Assembly: GCF_030505615.1 (NCBI RefSeq)
Contig: NZ_CP129992.1
Coordinates: forward strand, 1,054,001-1,118,000
Direction of reading: 5' to 3'
Source: Salinibaculum rarum
Lineage (GTDB): Archaea > Halobacteriota > Halobacteria > Halobacteriales > Haloarculaceae
Length of the DNA: 64,000 bases
Shown: positions 914-7,800 of the stretch, piece after piece
Layout of the letters: every line of letters starts with the position of its first letter
Position numbering within the stretch: the stretch's first letter is position 1
The notes under the pieces: model-generated
Seen by the model: the letters and a program-made list of their open reading frames with translations, nothing else
What the model was told of the DNA's origin: nothing
Database searches by the model: none
Made by a program: the position numbers and the translations under genes

Positions 914-2173
914 TTACCGTTCTGTCGCTGCCAGCGCAGCGGTCCGGCCACTCTTCATCGCGCCCTGTATCGACGACCACTCGGTGTAGTCGCCGGCCAG
1001 GAACACCGGTCCCTCGGGGTCGTCGACGCTCGGCAGTGACGAGCGAAAGCCCGGCGGCTGGTCGAACTGGGCGACGTCGATGCGGTCGGTCGCCAGCAGT
1101 TCGAGCCCGGAAAACTGGTTTTCGGGATACCACGACGCCAGCGCGTCGCGGACCTCCGCCGCGAGTTCGTCGTCGCTCGCGTCCTGTTTGCCAAGGAAGG
1201 TCGCACTCAGCAGTTTCTCGTCGTCGGGGGCCAGTTCGGGCGCGACGGCCGACATCGGCGCGACCTGGTTTGGCCGGTCGTCGGCGGCGTTGAGCACGAG
1301 TCGGCGCCCGCTCGTGAAGTGCTGTGTCGCCGGCAGGCGGAAATGCTGGGTCACACAGCTCCGGGGGGTCGTCGGAATCGACCCGACATCGGTCAGCTCC
1401 TGTGCCGTCGGCGGGTCCGTCGCGACGATAGCGTCGTCAGCGCTGACCGTCTCGCTGCCGGTCGTCACCGTCACGCCGCCGTCCTCGGCGTCGACCGCCT
1501 CGACTGTGGTTTCGGTGACAATCTCCGCCCCGGCCTCTCGTGCCCGCCGTGCCAGCTGGTCGGGAATCGCTCCCATCCCAGCCGCCGGGACGGCGGTCTT
1601 GCCCGTGCTCAGCATCTTGAAGGTGTACTCGAAGACAGCCCGCGAGGTCGACAGCGAGCGGTCGAGGGTGATGCCGCCGTAGAACGGGGCCGCGAAGTTT
1701 TCCCGAAAGCGCGCCGAGAAGCCGCGGTCGGCGAGGAACGCCTTGATGCTCTGGTCGTCGTGGCCCAGCGCCGCGTCGACGGACTGGTTCGAGAGGTCCC
1801 GGCGGAGTTTCAGCACGCGGAGCTTGTCGCCCAGCGTCACCTCGCGGTTGAACAGTGACTCTGACAGTGCGGTCGGGTCACGGAGCGGGTCCGAGAGCAC
1901 CGAGCGCTGGCCGGGACGCGCGATGGTCGCGCCGGGCGTGAAGTATCGAAGGTCCAGCGCGTCGAGGTCGAGTTCTCGCTGGACGGCGGGGTAGCCGGTG
2001 AGGAGAACCTGAAACCCGCGGTCGAGCGTGAACCCCTCGACGTCTCGACTGCGGACCCGGCCGCCGACCGAGTCGTTGCGTTCGAACAGCGTCACGTCCA
2101 CGTCCCGGTCGGCGAGCGTGCGCGCGGCGACCAGTCCTGCCAGCCCGCCGCCGACGACCGCTACTTCCGTCAT
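914..2173 (-). CDS. FAD-dependent amine-oxidase-like oxidoreductase (protoporphyrinogen oxidase/desaturase fold)
   Basis: A 419-aa flavoprotein. The start is taken at the ATG giving MTEVAVVGGGLAGLVAA, because this places the dinucleotide-binding GxGxxG motif at the N-terminus; an ATG nine codons upstream is open but leaves an unlikely leader. Residues near 30 carry the E of the FAD ribose site (LFERNDSVGGRVRS), and the family R-G-F segment (DRGFQVLLTGYP) follows. The C-terminus ends with the second FAD motif, VFLAGDYTEWSSIQGAMKSG. This architecture is shared by phytoene desaturases, protoporphyrinogen oxidases and amine oxidases; haloarchaeal genomes carry several of unknown substrate. It converges on the small membrane gene. 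Fold confident, substrate unknown. Confidence 0.8.
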   Translation of the reverse strand: MTEVAVVGGGLAGLVAARTLADRDVDVTLFERNDSVGGRVRSRDVEGFTLDRGFQVLLTGYPAVQRELDLDALDLRYFTPGATIARPGQRSVLSDPLRDPTALSESLFNREVTLGDKLRVLKLRRDLSNQSVDAALGHDDQSIKAFLADRGFSARFRENFAAPFYGGITLDRSLSTSRAVFEYTFKMLSTGKTAVPAAGMGAIPDQLARRAREAGAEIVTETTVEAVDAEDGGVTVTTGSETVSADDAIVATDPPTAQELTDVGSIPTTPRSCVTQHFRLPATQHFTSGRRLVLNAADDRPNQVAPMSAVAPELAPDDEKLLSATFLGKQDASDDELAAEVRDALASWYPENQFSGLELLATDRIDVAQFDQPPGFRSSLPSVDDPEGPVFLAGDYTEWSSIQGAMKSGRTAALAATER

Positions 2174-2285
2174 ATCCTCTCCTGTGGGCGCCACCACCAA
2201 AACGGCTGTGAGCGACGGGCCAGCCGTTCGCCGCTGTGGACCACGAACGGACAGGAATTAGTCGGCGCGGTCCAGAGTTCCGGCT

Positions 2286-3470
2286 ATGGAGACGACTGCG
2301 GCCTTCGCCGGCTTCCGCTGTACCGACTGCGGTGCGAGACACGACAGCGACGAGTCACACCGCTGTCCGGACTGTGGCGGCTGGCTCGATGCCGCCTACG
2401 ACCACGGTGAAATCGACCTCGACCACGAGCACCTCACGCCGGACGACACTGCCGGGCTCGCCGCCTTCGCCGACCTGCTCCCTTTCGGAGCCGAGACGCT
2501 CGTGACACTCGGAGAGGGTGCGACCCCACTGCTTGCCTGCCCCGACCTGGCCGCGGACCTCGGCGTCGAAGCGGTCTACGTCAAAGACGAGGGCGCGAGC
2601 ACCACCGGCGCGGCACTGGACCGCGGGATGGCACTCGCCGTCACCGCCGCCCGCGAACACGGCGCCACCGACGTTGCACTGCCCTCGATGGGCAACAGCG
2701 GGCAGGCTGCCGCCGCCTACGCCGCCCGCGCTGACCTCGATTCGCACTCCTTTGTCCCGTCTCGGACGCCCTTCGTCAACAAGGCGATGGTGAACGTCCA
2801 CGGCGGCGACATGTCCGTCGTCGGCGGCCGCTACGCCGACGCCGCCGAGGCTTTCCAGGACGCGATGGGCGAGGAAGACTGGTACTCCGTCGCGCCGTTC
2901 GCCAGCCCCTACCGCCACGAGGGGATGAAGACACTCGCCTACGAAATCGCCGCCCAACTGGACTGGGCGGCCCCCGACGCCGTCGTCCACCCGACTAGCC
3001 ACGGTGCCGGCATCGTCGGCCTCCGGAAGGGCTTTGCCGAACTGACGACCCACGACCTCCTCGACGACGAGGCGCGACTGTACGCCGCCCAGGCCGGCGG
3101 CTGTGCCCCCTACGCGACGGCGTGGGAGGACGGCGCGGACGACCCCGCTCCCGTCGAGCATCCCGACACCATCGTCGGCCCGCTGGAGATTCCCGACCCG
3201 GCCGGTGGCGAGTGGGTCATCGACGCGCTCGAAGCGACCGGCGGCGCGGCCGTCGCGACCGGCGACCAGGGCATCCTCGAAGGTGCCGTCTCGCTGGCCG
3301 AGACTGGCGTCACGATGGGTGCCTCCGGCGGGGCCGCACTCAGCGGTGCGCAGGTGCTGGCCGACCAGGGCGCCTTCGACAGCGACGACGTCCTCGTCCT
3401 GGTCAACCCCACCACCGGGAACAAGGAGGCCGACATCCTTCGCAGTCACCTGATGAGCAAGGGCATCTGA
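2286..3470 (+). CDS. Threonine synthase-like protein lacking the PLP lysine
   Basis: A 394-aa protein of the PLP-dependent fold-type II family. It has the N-terminal zinc-ribbon typical of archaeal threonine synthases (CTDCGARHD and CPDCGGW, residues 12-33). The core motifs follow: VTLGEGATPL, VYVKDEGASTTGAALDRGMA, PSMGNSGQAAAAYAAR, and a C-terminal glycine-rich loop. In threonine synthase the segment is normally PTGSFKDRG, whose lysine forms the Schiff base with PLP; here the codons read G-A-A-L-D-R, with Leu (CTG) in its place. Another family segment, normally PxGxGxxxxGxxKGF, reads PTSHGAGIVGLRKGF. Length fits the family. Either a non-catalytic or repurposed paralogue, or an enzyme using a different residue. 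Family confident, activity doubtful. Confidence 0.75.
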   Translation: METTAAFAGFRCTDCGARHDSDESHRCPDCGGWLDAAYDHGEIDLDHEHLTPDDTAGLAAFADLLPFGAETLVTLGEGATPLLACPDLAADLGVEAVYVKDEGASTTGAALDRGMALAVTAAREHGATDVALPSMGNSGQAAAAYAARADLDSHSFVPSRTPFVNKAMVNVHGGDMSVVGGRYADAAEAFQDAMGEEDWYSVAPFASPYRHEGMKTLAYEIAAQLDWAAPDAVVHPTSHGAGIVGLRKGFAELTTHDLLDDEARLYAAQAGGCAPYATAWEDGADDPAPVEHPDTIVGPLEIPDPAGGEWVIDALEATGGAAVATGDQGILEGAVSLAETGVTMGASGGAALSGAQVLADQGAFDSDDVLVLVNPTTGNKEADILRSHLMSKGI

Positions 3471-3539: not shown

Positions 3540-4877
3540 ATGAGTAGCGAGCGCGACGCGACTACCGGGGCCGCCGGTGACGTCTCGCGGCGCCGCGCGC
3601 TCGCCACCGTGCTCGGCATCGTCTTTATCGACCTGCTTGGCTTTGGCGTCATCATCCCGGTGTTGCCCTTCTACGTCCGGAGCTTCGGCGTCAGCGACGT
3701 GTTCATCGGCCTGCTTGCGGCCTCGTACTCGCTGACGCAGTTCGTCTTCGCGCCGTTGCTTGGCCGGCTCTCCGACGAGCGTGGCCGCCGGCCCGTCCTC
3801 ATGCTCTCGGTCTTTGGCAGTGCCGTCGCCTGGACGCTCTTCGGTCTCGGTGAAGAGTTCCAAGTACTCTTTGGCACCGTCGGCGGACTCGGCGTGCTCT
3901 TTGCCGCCCGGATGCTCGCCGGTGCGATGGGTGGTAACATCGCCACCGCGCAGGCGTACATCACCGACGTAACCCCCAAAGAAGACCGGGCGGCCGCGCT
4001 CGGCCTCATCGGCGCGACGTTCGGGCTGGGCTTTGTGTTCGGCCCGGCGCTCGGTTCGGTCGTCGCCAGCGACTCCGTCGTGACGGCTGCCCGGAATATC
4101 CTCCCGAGTTTCGTCCCCGCGACGACGTTCTCGCTCCCGAGTTTCCTCGCCGCGGGCCTGAGCCTGCTCGCCTTCGTCGCTGCCGCGCTCTTTTTGCCCG
4201 AGCCAAACCGGACGCGAACGACCAGAGCAGAGAGTGGACTCGTCTCCCAGTTCCGGACCGCGCTCGCCGACGCGGACCTCCGCCCGCTCGTGCTCGTCTT
4301 TCTGGTCGTCTCGCTGGCCTTCTCGGGCGTGCAGGTCGCCTTCATCCCGTTTGTCGCCGACATCTACGGCTACCAGGAAGCACAGGCCGGGCTGTTGTTG
4401 ACCTACATCGGCGTGCTCGGGGTTCTCAACCAGGGTGTCGTCGTCCGCGCGCTCTCGCGGCGGTTTGCAGACGAACGTCTCGCCGTCGGTGGCGCGTCGC
4501 TGTTGCTCGTCTCGCTTGTCCTGTTGCCCTTCGCCCCGATTCTCGGTCGGGCGCTGTTCCCCGCCGTCCTCGGTGCGTCGCCGGAACTGGTCGCGTTGCT
4601 CGTCGTCCTCGCAATCCTCTCAAGCGGGAACGGCCTCCTGAACGTCGGCACGGCGTCGATGGTCTCCGCGGCCGCCGACGAGGACAGCCAGGGCAGTGCC
4701 TTCGGCGTCACCCAGGGCGCAGGGAGTCTGGGACGGACCATCGGCCCGCCGGTGATGACCGCCATCTACGTGCTGGTCTACTGGGCCCCGTTCCTGCTCG
4801 GTGCCACGCTCACGGCGTTCGTCGTCGCGGCGCTGGTCGTTCTCGTGCGGCGGTCAGAAGTGTTTACTGACGTGTGA
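3540..4877 (+). CDS. MFS transporter, TetA-like drug/metabolite exporter
   Basis: A 445-aa major facilitator superfamily protein. After a hydrophilic N-terminus the first helix reads VLGIVFIDLLGFGVIIPVLP, the classic start of the TetA/MdtG-like DHA1 group (D and G-P rich). The cytoplasmic loop 2-3 signature is present as LLGRLSDERGRRPVLM. About twelve hydrophobic segments follow, with a polar loop in the middle (residues about 225-240). Substrate cannot be told from sequence. The gene stands alone, 70 bases after the threonine-synthase-like gene on the same strand, and converges with the J-domain gene. Confidence 0.82.
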   Translation: MSSERDATTGAAGDVSRRRALATVLGIVFIDLLGFGVIIPVLPFYVRSFGVSDVFIGLLAASYSLTQFVFAPLLGRLSDERGRRPVLMLSVFGSAVAWTLFGLGEEFQVLFGTVGGLGVLFAARMLAGAMGGNIATAQAYITDVTPKEDRAAALGLIGATFGLGFVFGPALGSVVASDSVVTAARNILPSFVPATTFSLPSFLAAGLSLLAFVAAALFLPEPNRTRTTRAESGLVSQFRTALADADLRPLVLVFLVVSLAFSGVQVAFIPFVADIYGYQEAQAGLLLTYIGVLGVLNQGVVVRALSRRFADERLAVGGASLLLVSLVLLPFAPILGRALFPAVLGASPELVALLVVLAILSSGNGLLNVGTASMVSAAADEDSQGSAFGVTQGAGSLGRTIGPPVMTAIYVLVYWAPFLLGATLTAFVVAALVVLVRRSEVFTDV

Positions 4878-4886
4878 TACGGCCGT

Positions 4887-5504
4887 TCACTCGGCGTGTT
4901 TTTTCGCCAGCGTGTACGCCTCGCGGACGCGCTTGAACTCGTCTTCGTTGCCACCCTGGTCGGGGTGGACCTCCTTGACTTTCCGCCGGTAGGCCCGTTT
5001 GACCTCGTCGACGGAGGCGCCCGTCGGGACGCCGAGTTCGGCACAGGCGGCCCGCAACGGGTCGATGGCGCTGGACTCCTCATCTTCGACGCTAATGTCT
5101 GGGGTCTCGAAGGGGAGCCGAGCGCCGAGTGCGGAACCGGGCATCTCGTGTTCGACCAACACCGGCTCGGTTTCCGTGGGGACGATGCGGTAGTACGCCC
5201 GTGCGTCGAAGGTGATTGCCACGTCACGCTTTGGCAGGTAGAAGGCGATGTGCTGGCCCTCGACGAAGTGGTTCTCGGCGTACTGCTCGCCGATGGCATC
5301 GAGATACTCCCGAAACTCGGTGCGGCGGCGCGACTCACCGCTCGTCCGGCGTCTGCGATGGGGGGACCGTCCCGGGAGCAAGCGCTCGGCCAGTACGAAT
5401 GCCACCGCCACCACCACCGTGCCCGCGGCACCGAGTGCGATGCCGGTGACGAGAGCCGGCGGCAGCCCCGCTATCCCAGCCTGCAACACAGGCCAGTATA
5501 GCAC
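4887..5504 (-). CDS. Membrane-anchored J-domain protein
   Basis: A 205-aa protein. Residues about 12-40 form a membrane segment (LVTGIALGAAGTVVVAVAFV), then a basic stretch, a middle region of unknown fold, and a C-terminal J domain from about residue 150: ELGVPTGASVDEVKRAYRRK, then EVHPDQGGNEDEF with the HPD tripeptide that stimulates Hsp70 ATPase. Unlike DnaJ, the J domain is last and there is no Gly/Phe or zinc region. It probably recruits DnaK to the membrane or to a specific client; the client is unknown. It follows the PAC2 gene on the same strand with a 49-base gap. Confidence 0.8.
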   Translation of the reverse strand: MLYWPVLQAGIAGLPPALVTGIALGAAGTVVVAVAFVLAERLLPGRSPHRRRRTSGESRRRTEFREYLDAIGEQYAENHFVEGQHIAFYLPKRDVAITFDARAYYRIVPTETEPVLVEHEMPGSALGARLPFETPDISVEDEESSAIDPLRAACAELGVPTGASVDEVKRAYRRKVKEVHPDQGGNEDEFKRVREAYTLAKKHAE

Positions 5505-5553
5505 CTGAACGAGTAAGAATCGTTCGCTCTTTGTCAGCTACGCTCGGGCGGTC

Positions 5554-6306
5554 TCAGCCGATGTACCGCAGGTCCTCGTCCGTCGCCGCCGGCGCGCTCT
5601 GTTCCATCTCCTGTATCTTCCTGACGACCTCTTCCATCTCCTCGGCGCGGTCTTCCAGCGAGCCGAAATCGACTTCGAACCCGAGGATGTCCTGCAGGAC
5701 TTCGAGCACTGCCTGTGCGCTCTTGGGGTCGACCAGATAGCCGCTGGTTTCGCCCATCAGACACGCTGCGGGGACGTCACGACGCTCGCCCAGGCCGAGC
5801 AACAGTCCGCTCACGCCGACGATGCCACCAGCGGGTTCGTCGCCGCGGAACTCGACGCCGGCGTCTTCGAGTTCGTCGCGCTGCTGTTCGGTCGTCGTCG
5901 CGCCGATAACGTCGTACTCCTCGATGAGTTCGCCCGTCGGGACGCCGCCGAGTGCAAAGACTCGCTCGACGCCCAGTTCCTCGGCGACATCGAGGAAGGT
6001 GTTCGTCAGTCCGTAGTGGCCGTTCGTGTCCTGGGCCTGGTGGTCGCCGGTGAGTACCAGCAGGTCCTGGCCGTCGGTTTCGACGGCGTGAATCTCGGCA
6101 CACGCGAGCTGTGTCAGTCCGTCTTCGACGCTGACCTGTGGCGGGAGATGCGTCGAGTAGATGCGCCGGACGAGCGTCCCGTCCTGTTCCTCGACGAGAT
6201 GCTCGGCGGCGAGTTTGCCGACGTGGCCGACGCCAGGCAGCCCCTCGACCAGTACCGGGTTCGAGAGGTCCGCCTCGGCGACTGCCTCGATGTCGAATTC
6301 GTCCAT
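5554..6306 (-). CDS. PAC2-family protein (proteasome assembly chaperone-like)
   Basis: A 250-aa cytoplasmic protein of the PAC2 / COG2047 group. Family motifs are visible: NPVLVEGLPGVGHVGKLAAE near residue 16, LLVLTGDHQ, GHYGLTNTFLDVAEELG, and a Gly-rich PAGGIVGVSGLLLGLG near residue 160, followed by the C-terminal helix that would contact a partner. The protein ends DLRYIG, which resembles but does not match the HbYX tail of true proteasome-assembly chaperones (Tyr is third from last). It is the last gene of the L44e-S27e-aIF2-alpha-Nop10 operon, 5 bases after nop10, a gene order found in many archaea that links translation and protein quality control. Confidence 0.85.
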   Translation of the reverse strand: MDEFDIEAVAEADLSNPVLVEGLPGVGHVGKLAAEHLVEEQDGTLVRRIYSTHLPPQVSVEDGLTQLACAEIHAVETDGQDLLVLTGDHQAQDTNGHYGLTNTFLDVAEELGVERVFALGGVPTGELIEEYDVIGATTTEQQRDELEDAGVEFRGDEPAGGIVGVSGLLLGLGERRDVPAACLMGETSGYLVDPKSAQAVLEVLQDILGFEVDFGSLEDRAEEMEEVVRKIQEMEQSAPAATDEDLRYIG

Positions 6307-6311
6307 ACCCC

Positions 6312-6494
6312 CTATTCCCGGTTGCGGCGCTTAAGAGCGCGTCGATACTCGCCGTGTGGGTCCGCTGGGTTAAACGGCGCTGGCGCGCTGTTGACCGCCT
6401 TCCCGCCACACTCGGGACACTCCTCGCCGAGTGTGTACACCGGTCGCTCGTGGGTGTCCTCCCAGTCGGCACAGACGAGAATATCGGATTTCAC
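6312..6494 (-). CDS. nop10: Nop10, H/ACA RNP protein
   Basis: A 60-aa protein read from a GTG start, chosen because it gives VKSDILVCADW, the normal N-terminus and length of archaeal Nop10; no ATG gives a sensible start. Motifs: RPVYTLGEECPECGG (the zinc/beta-hairpin part) and NPADPHGEYRRALKRR (the C-terminal helix that binds the pseudouridine synthase Cbf5). Nop10 belongs to the box H/ACA particle that directs pseudouridylation of rRNA. It lies 7 bases after the aIF2-alpha gene and 5 bases before the PAC2 gene, so the operon is probably transcribed as one unit. Confidence 0.93.
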   Translation of the reverse strand: MKSDILVCADWEDTHERPVYTLGEECPECGGKAVNSAPAPFNPADPHGEYRRALKRRNRE

Positions 6495-6501
6495 GGGCGC
6501 G

Positions 6502-7302
6502 CTATTCGTCGTCTTCGTTTCGCTCGCGGTGGTACTCCCCGCTGCCACCGTGGTCGGCGACGACGGCGCTTGCGCGCTCTGCGCTCGCTTCGAGTTCGGA
6601 TTCGGCGGTCTTGTAATCGGGCGCCTGCACGCGGATGCGGTACTCCGGAGACCCGACGTAGGTCACGTCGAGTTCGACCTCTTCAGGCACGTCCCCGTTG
6701 CCCTCGGCCGCCTGCAGCGCCTCCTTGATGATGTCCACGCCGTCACTGGTCGGGCATTCGAGGTCGACATAGCCCGTGACGTTGACGTAGGGCACCGAGA
6801 CGTTGTCCCGGGCCGTCTCGACGATGGCCTCGATTTCGTCTTCGTCGAGGTCGGAATCCTCGAGCGCTTCCGTCCCGTGGATGGCGGCCTGCTCGAAGCC
6901 GTCGTACATCGAGCCGAAATCGGCGAGCAGTTCGTTCGCGATGGCGGCGTACTGCTCGTCGTCCATGTCCTCGCCGAAGGCGATAGTCATCCACTTCTCG
7001 GCTTTCTGCTCGTTTTTCCACTCCTGAATCTTGTCCTTGCGCTGGTGGTCGTTGACGTCTTTCAGCGAGAGGTCTATCTGCTGGGCGCTCTCGTCGATGT
7101 CGAGCACCTTCGCGACGACGCGCTGGTCGACGTTGACGTGGTCGCGGACGTTCTTGATCCAGCCGGAGGCGACCTCGCTGATGTGACAGAGGCCGCGCTT
7201 GTCTTCGTACTCCAGCAGGTCGACGAAGACCCCGAAGTCCTCGATTTCGTCGACGCGCCCGACGACGAGTTCGCCGGGTTCGGGCCAACCGCTGTACTTC
7301 AT
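6502..7302 (-). CDS. eif2A: Translation initiation factor aIF2, alpha subunit
   Basis: A 266-aa protein that matches archaeal aIF2-alpha along its length. Domain 1 is an S1 OB-fold at residues about 9-85 ([20 protein letters not shown], then [14 protein letters not shown]). Domain 2 is helical, and domain 3 near residues 170-255 is alpha/beta and contacts the gamma subunit. With the beta and gamma subunits it delivers initiator Met-tRNA to the small ribosomal subunit; the initiator tRNA gene lies in this same window at 13.2 kb. Its start overlaps the S27e stop by 4 bases, indicating translational coupling. Highly conserved, so the call is firm. Confidence 0.96.
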
Positions 7303-7472
7303 CGGGCCTCGACTGTTTCAGTGACGTCGCCCTCGATGGCCGCCTTGCCGCCGGTGGGCCGTGCGAGCGTGTGCCCACAGACCGCACAGGCGACTTCCGT
7401 GGCGGCTTTCCCGAAGACGACCTGCTCGTTTTCACAGTCCGGACAGGTGACGCGGTAGAAGCTTCCTGCCAT
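7299..7472 (-). CDS. rps27e: Ribosomal protein S27e
   Basis: A 57-aa zinc-ribbon ribosomal protein of the small subunit, found in archaea and eukaryotes. The start is the ATG giving [17 protein letters not shown]; the frame is open upstream but this start gives the usual size and lies 2 bases after the L44e stop. Zinc ligands are two CxxC pairs, CPDC (residues 10-13) and CAVC (residues 29-32). It ends with the aIF2-alpha start overlapping its stop. Part of the translation operon read leftwards from the promoter near 7795. Confidence 0.95.
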
Positions 7473-7474
7473 AG

Positions 7475-7756
7475 TTACTCCTGGAATTTGAGTCGGCCGG
7501 CACGCCACCCTTCGCGCTGGTGGGCCTTGCCACACTCACCGCAGCGGTAGGTGAGCTGAGTCTTTTTGGTCGGCTTGTCGCCACCGGGGACCTTCGAGAA
7601 CTTCCCGTCGTTCCCGATGCCCGAATTGCGCTCGCGCTGGCGGTCAGCGACCTTCTTCATGCCCGAGGAGCGGCCCGAACGGACCTTCTCGACCTCGTGT
7701 TCGTGGTGTTCGTTACAGTGCGGACAGTACGTGTTCATCCGGCGTGGCATCTCCAT
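7475..7756 (-). CDS. rpl44e: Ribosomal protein L44e
   Basis: A 93-aa large-subunit ribosomal protein of the archaeal/eukaryotic L44e (L36a) family. The start is the ATG giving [17 protein letters not shown], which matches the family N-terminus; a GTG/ATG further upstream would lie in the promoter. Two CxxC pairs (CPHC near residue 11 and CGEC near residue 73) form the zinc site, and the basic linker [20 protein letters not shown] is almost invariant in the family. First gene of the operon. A TATA-like element lies 37-42 bases upstream of the start. Confidence 0.96.
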
Positions 7757-7790
7757 ATATATCGACCTTGCGGCGCTGTTAGACAGCGGC

Positions 7791-7800
7791 ACTTAAAACC
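7791..7800 (-). promoter_or_regulatory. TATA box for the L44e operon
   Basis: On the minus strand the bases read GGTTTTAAGT. The core TTTTAA is 37-42 bases before the L44e start codon, placing transcription initiation about 10-15 bases before the ATG. This fits a haloarchaeal promoter with a very short leader. The stretch is an A/T island in G+C-rich DNA, with no competing element between it and the gene. Confidence 0.55.

Follow-up and report, generated by a model that had tools for sequence, protein, structure and literature searches.

The locus and its threonine synthase-like gene

The window analysed here is a stretch of 64,000 nucleotides from the haloarchaeon Salinibaculum rarum (NZ_CP129992.1, positions 1,054,001 to 1,118,000), and its features are collected in Table 1. 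The gene under study starts with ATG and has an intact reading frame of 394 codons for amino acids. Its product (the window protein) matched the fold type II family of PLP enzymes in Pfam (PALP, E 7e-59, 200 bits). The best NCBIfam model was NF006050/PRK08197 'threonine synthase' with 293.3 bits (cut-off 303), and TIGR00260 gave 115.9 bits (cut-off 167.1), so that the protein lies below both threonine synthase family cut-offs. The top structural neighbours of its AF2 model (pLDDT 84, pTM 0.88; low confidence at residues 165-171) in Foldseek were threonine synthases. On the one hand, the window protein shares with threonine synthases (ThrC; TIGR00260 and NF006050 PRK08197; 2D1F, 1UIM, 2ZSJ and 2C2B) the PF00291 fold type II, a sequence match over residues 58-383, the DRG and PYRxEGxKT motifs and the zinc ribbon of archaeal ThrC. 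On the other hand, it lacks the Schiff-base lysine, carries SHGAG in place of GGGVG and has Pro at the position of Thr375.

Table 1. Features of the locus in window coordinates; Lys+ and Lys-less denote homologues with and without the Schiff-base lysine
Feature	Position	Strand	Basis or remark
FAD-dependent amine-oxidoreductase/HpnE-like gene, divergently transcribed	914..2200	-	PF01593, E 3e-50
ThrC-like pseudoenzyme gene	2286..3470	+	394 aa, fold type II PLP-enzyme family, PF00291
N-terminal zinc-ribbon cysteines C12, C15, C27, C30	2319..2375	+	sequence
Former Schiff-base motif, residues 107-113, TGAALDR (canonical TGSFKDR)	2604..2624	+	T107, D112, R113 invariant
Leu111 codon CTG, replacing the PLP lysine	2616..2618	+	sequence, alignment
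N137 of the GNxGQ loop (substrate/cofactor loop), kept in the window protein	2694..2696	+	alignment
Small-domain segment, residues 158-176, PSRTPFVNKAMVNVHGGDM	2757..2813	+	R160, K166, M168, G173 in all 140 Lys-less proteins
PYRHEGMKT, residues 208-216, conserved, common to threonine synthases	2907..2933	+	alignment
Degenerate PLP-phosphate loop PTSHGAG, residues 236-242 (Lys+ form PTGGGVG)	2991..3011	+	alignment
P375, Thr in all Lys+ homologues	3408..3410	+	alignment
C-terminal tail LRSHLMSKGI, conserved	3438..3467	+	R386, L389 in all Lys-less proteins

The product of the FAD oxidoreductase gene reached 116 bits against HpnE, below the cut-off, and it stayed under all curated NCBIfam cut-offs. 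This gene was found divergent and directly upstream at 109 Lys-less and 22 Lys+ loci, with a median gap to the ThrC-like gene of 184 bp at the Lys-less loci. The Lys+ copies that also occupy this locus show that Lys-less and Lys+ genes are orthologous by position, so that the former are more than a paralogue family of their own; the Lys+ copies of family f4 that lie off synteny are paralogues. The syntenic Lys+ orthologues (e.g. L011, L020, L030 and L145) are about 56-60% identical to the window protein and carry the same N- and C-terminal signatures, which are well kept in the subfamily (METTxAF and LRSHLMxxG), but unlike the window protein they retain PTG(S/T)FKDRG and YPTGGGVGL. The kept gene order beside the FAD oxidoreductase may stem from a slow pace of rearrangement and not from a link in function.

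Just downstream, a conserved translation-linked block (4887-7792, minus strand) encodes a DnaJ-domain protein, a PAC2 protein, aIF2-alpha and L44e. PAC2 and aIF2-alpha also flank a divergent ThrC-like copy (L222) in another genome of the same family, G003. The gene at 3540-4874 (plus strand) encodes an MFS transporter akin to Tet-type efflux pumps, far below their cut-offs, and is a singleton among the related loci compared.

The lysine position and the PLP site

The segment at the former Schiff-base motif reads KDEGASTTGAALDRG. An alignment with solved threonine synthases, which read KxEGxNPTGSFKDRG here, placed L111 at the Schiff-base lysine, as the sequence-only reading of this DNA had claimed; its codon is indeed CTG, but it lies one base before the position given there (about 2617-2619). 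Of the 203 proteins of the subfamily that were analysed, 63 carry Lys at this position and 140 lack it. The replacements in the latter are A (38), L (37), T (28), V (17) and G (6), with fewer R, F, I, Y, D, E, H and S, which makes 13 distinct residues standing in for the lysine. The sister species Salinibaculum litoreum, whose protein is 79% identical to the window protein, has Phe. A sequencing or frameshift error was ruled out, since the lysine is missing clade-wide and through codons such as CTG, CTC, GCC, ACG and others; chance or error for Leu111 in particular is excluded by the Phe of S. litoreum and by the 140 homologues without Lys. The idea that Leu itself is conserved in orthologues was rejected by the same spread of residues. 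Considering that the position is nearly free inside a fixed motif, nothing specific took over from the lysine. In addition, no alignment column gains Lys in the 140 Lys-less proteins, and a compensating or migrated lysine elsewhere was rejected as far as the alignment can tell.

Outside this position, the Lys-less proteins are constrained. The residues T107, D112 and R113, which flank the former lysine, are identical in all 140 of them, and so are G136, R160, K166, M168, G173, A186, P208, P230, P236, Q269, P305, D327, R386 and L389. The median dN/dS of close pairs was 0.175 for Lys-less vs 0.197 for Lys+ proteins, and no internal stops occur in the subfamily matches listed. Accordingly, the window gene is neither an error nor a pseudogene; its product has the marks of a pseudoenzyme, as an enzyme homologue without catalytic motif residues whose frame is intact and under purifying selection.

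The rest of the PLP site showed a different picture. We take the phosphate loop to be a PLP contact from what is well established for enzymes of fold type II, not from a measured distance. Its form TGGGVGL is present in 59 of the 63 Lys+ proteins vs 2 of the 140 Lys-less ones, and 54% of the Lys-less proteins have an acidic residue within the loop. The Thr at position 375, which by analogy with the family presumably contacts the PLP ring nitrogen, falls from 100% of Lys+ to 47% of Lys-less proteins, 42% of which have Pro there. F110 falls from 94% to 16%, K214 from 94% to 2% and N137 from 95% to 65%, and all four zinc-ribbon cysteines are kept in 83% of Lys-less vs 95% of Lys+ homologues. The altered downstream loop described by the sequence-only reading was confirmed. 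Its statement that other PLP-binding and zinc-ribbon elements remain holds for the zinc-ribbon cysteines, but not for the phosphate loop, the Thr375 position and others. Its suggestion that catalysis has been lost appears likely from the missing lysine and loop, and loss of PLP chemistry in the window protein is strongly supported at the level of sequence.

The two Lys-less proteins with an intact loop, L083 and L086, both have Thr at the lysine position and are among the youngest losses; these most recent losses could still hold PLP non-covalently. Conversely, the loop is altered in four Lys+ proteins (L007, L110, L111 and L124), all of them nested among Lys-less ones, so that loop and lysine may decay in either order, or the lysine may have been regained. 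Their destroyed or altered loops (LEGTEGL, TGAGTGL) would fit possible regains or half-decayed intermediates; one base change, from Thr ACG to Lys AAG, suffices to restore a lysine. An independent-pairs test of loop decay against lysine loss gave 3-4 concordant and 0 discordant pairs among only 6, too few for significance.

Distribution and repeated loss of the lysine

Homologues with about 40-79% identity were found in essentially every haloarchaeon searched. At E<=1e-30, which lets in canonical ThrC as well, relatives were present in 295/295 genomes of the order. At E<=1e-58 they were present in 97/98 genomes of the own family (intact in 72 of its 73 good genomes) and in 79/79 genomes of f4, the family with Haloferacaceae that includes Halorubrum. 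The only own-family genome missed at this threshold, G003, has a more divergent copy, which is also Lys-less (Thr), as are the deep copies of families f12 (Val) and f11 (Arg). The sampled f1 genomes comprised 78 with Lys-less copies only, 14 with Lys+ copies only and one with both, and many f4 genomes have a Lys-less copy plus a separate Lys+ paralogue. Outside the order, the matches were canonical-like ThrC with 30-36% identity; therefore, the subfamily looks haloarchaeal. A separate basal Lys+ subfamily (L132, L134, L136, L137, L139 and L218) has PTNTFKDRG, with Asn for Gly after PT, and an intact TGGGVGL; some genomes carry it together with the Lys-less gene.

The whole genome of S. rarum (3.54 Mb, 3 contigs) was searched for the canonical ThrC that the sequence-only reading had proposed to look for, and two further homologues with the lysine were found, at C1:797568-798791 (PTGSFKDRG) and C1:2387401-2388501 (PTGSTKDRG). 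Both exceed the TIGR00260 cut-off of 167, with 285 and 193 bits. The first is present in 73/73 good own-family genomes at 73-90% identity, from which we infer that threonine synthesis is independent of the Lys-less gene. Identity to the sister species is 79% for the Lys-less protein vs 90% for the canonical ThrC, indicating that the Lys-less protein evolves faster. In Haloferax volcanii, a transposon mutant of HVO_2969 (thrC3) requires added Gly/Ser/Thr (PMC4300041); this gene could belong to either ThrC subfamily.

On an IQ-TREE phylogeny from which the lysine motif and phosphate loop had been left out, the lysine state required 8 changes by parsimony (range 6-8), 6 of which are forced by well supported branches; if the lysine is never regained, 14 losses are needed. 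Forcing the Lys-less rows into one clade cost 580 log-likelihood units, and a single ancestral loss was rejected by the AU test (p = 9e-6). Young losses include L028/L029 (Thr) beside L030 (Lys) and L083/L086 (Thr) beside L074 (Lys); L009/L010/L018/L033 are a recent loss relative to Lys+ L026, and in genus g21 of family f7 the Thr and Arg copies adjoin Lys copies in the tree. By this sequence-based reconstruction, it is shown that the ancestor carried Lys and that the lysine was lost several times independently. The sequence-only reading held that orthologues with Lys would speak against it. Such orthologues do exist in synteny, but they indicate an ancestor with Lys followed by repeated loss, and they do not rescue the window protein as an enzyme.

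A probable role without PLP chemistry and its alternatives

Retention of the gene by nearly every haloarchaeon, together with many independent losses of its lysine, implies that its job probably no longer needs the cofactor. We consider it probable that the window gene encodes a pseudoenzyme derived from a ThrC/PRK08197-type PLP enzyme, with a haloarchaeal role that does without PLP chemistry, probably the binding of a ligand or partner. The non-catalytic function would have been present already in the lysine-bearing ancestor, predating the losses. The fold may serve as a binding module, in which the mobile small domain (R160/K166/M168/H172/G173) and PYRHEGxKT would take up a small ligand; alternatively, the cleft and the conserved C-terminal tail may contact a partner protein, for which the best candidates would be the product of the FAD oxidoreductase gene or an active ThrC paralogue. 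Threonine itself would be made by the canonical ThrC copies. Chances are about even that this nearly universal haloarchaeal protein turned from a PLP enzyme into a binding protein free of the cofactor 6 to 14 times in parallel, because the function under selection was non-catalytic before the lysine loss.

Non-covalent PLP binding was suggested by the sequence-only reading. Catalysis with PLP held in this way, in the absence of a Schiff-base lysine, is supported by the retained GNxGQ and PYRHEGxKT segments and D112/R113, and by the complete phosphate loop of L083/L086. However, we find it unlikely, because the phosphate loop is gone in 138/140 Lys-less proteins and often acidic, and the Thr375 position (Pro in 42%) and others are not retained either. 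Also, the few PLP enzymes that work without a Schiff-base lysine have one fixed substitute (e.g. His), whereas here the replacing residue is unconstrained. A Schiff base formed by a migrated lysine, such as K166 or K215, is very improbable: K100, K166 and K215 are conserved, but equally so in Lys+ proteins, no column gains Lys in the Lys-less ones, and the phosphate loop is gone. Least credible is a decaying relic, a slow series of pseudogenes without function. The eroded PLP site and the faster evolution relative to canonical ThrC would be in keeping with it, but dN/dS of 0.1-0.3, the lack of stops among the matches listed, the near-universal retention and the invariant residues are not, and a functionless relic was rejected on dN/dS and retention.

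The sequence-only reading also offered a regulatory paralogue. The protein is indeed a paralogue beside two Lys+ threonine synthases, and a regulatory role is plausible but unproven. In its specific form, the protein would be an obligate non-catalytic subunit in a hetero-oligomer with an active ThrC paralogue and would boost or regulate the synthesis of threonine. This is doubtful, yet it is the most conceivable of the alternatives: the fold and termini of the Lys-less protein are conserved, every good own-family genome has a canonical ThrC, and there are precedents in LCB1 of serine palmitoyltransferase and the dead paralogue of trypanosomatid deoxyhypusine synthase (PMC2748086, PMC3663545, PMC12727527). 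On the other hand, canonical ThrC is also found in genomes whose copy kept Lys, and the two genes are unlinked. We favour a binding role without PLP chemistry, and the gene points to a conserved function that may be linked with the FAD oxidoreductase.

Several PLP-enzyme homologues without PLP function or lysine resemble the window protein in this respect. LCB1 and the ornithine decarboxylase antizyme inhibitors act without catalysis (PMC2748086), and Rv3778c of M. tuberculosis is a Lys-less homologue (PMC12910592). Unlike the window protein, none of these is a relative of threonine synthase. The families of LCB1 and Rv3778c are of fold type I and that of the antizyme inhibitors is of fold type III, and we know of no comparable recurrent lysine loss in any of them. 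The tryptophan synthase beta-like (TSB-like) pseudoenzyme of eudicots is of fold type II, as is the window protein, and activates its partner allosterically, but it arose by changes at two other key residues and forms one core-eudicot-specific family (PMC12727527). In our literature search of open-licence papers, we found no published description of a haloarchaeal Lys-less ThrC. As a probable pseudoenzyme of a PLP family, the haloarchaeal protein stands out by its recurrence and near-universality. PLP-enzyme relatives without the lysine have been known one family at a time; a class-wide gene that sheds its PLP lysine repeatedly, with Lys+ orthologues sharing its locus, allows a direct test of the order and causes of pseudoenzyme evolution. 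If our reading is true, these genes would be a natural replicate series from moonlighting enzyme to pseudoenzyme, with living intermediates in which the loop is intact and Lys gone, or Lys present and the loop gone.

Finally, 70 Lys-less proteins were scanned with an E-value chosen to match the NF006050 threonine synthase cut-off, and 22 of them reached or exceeded it. Public annotation therefore likely labels them threonine synthase, an annotation trap that would mislead metabolic models.
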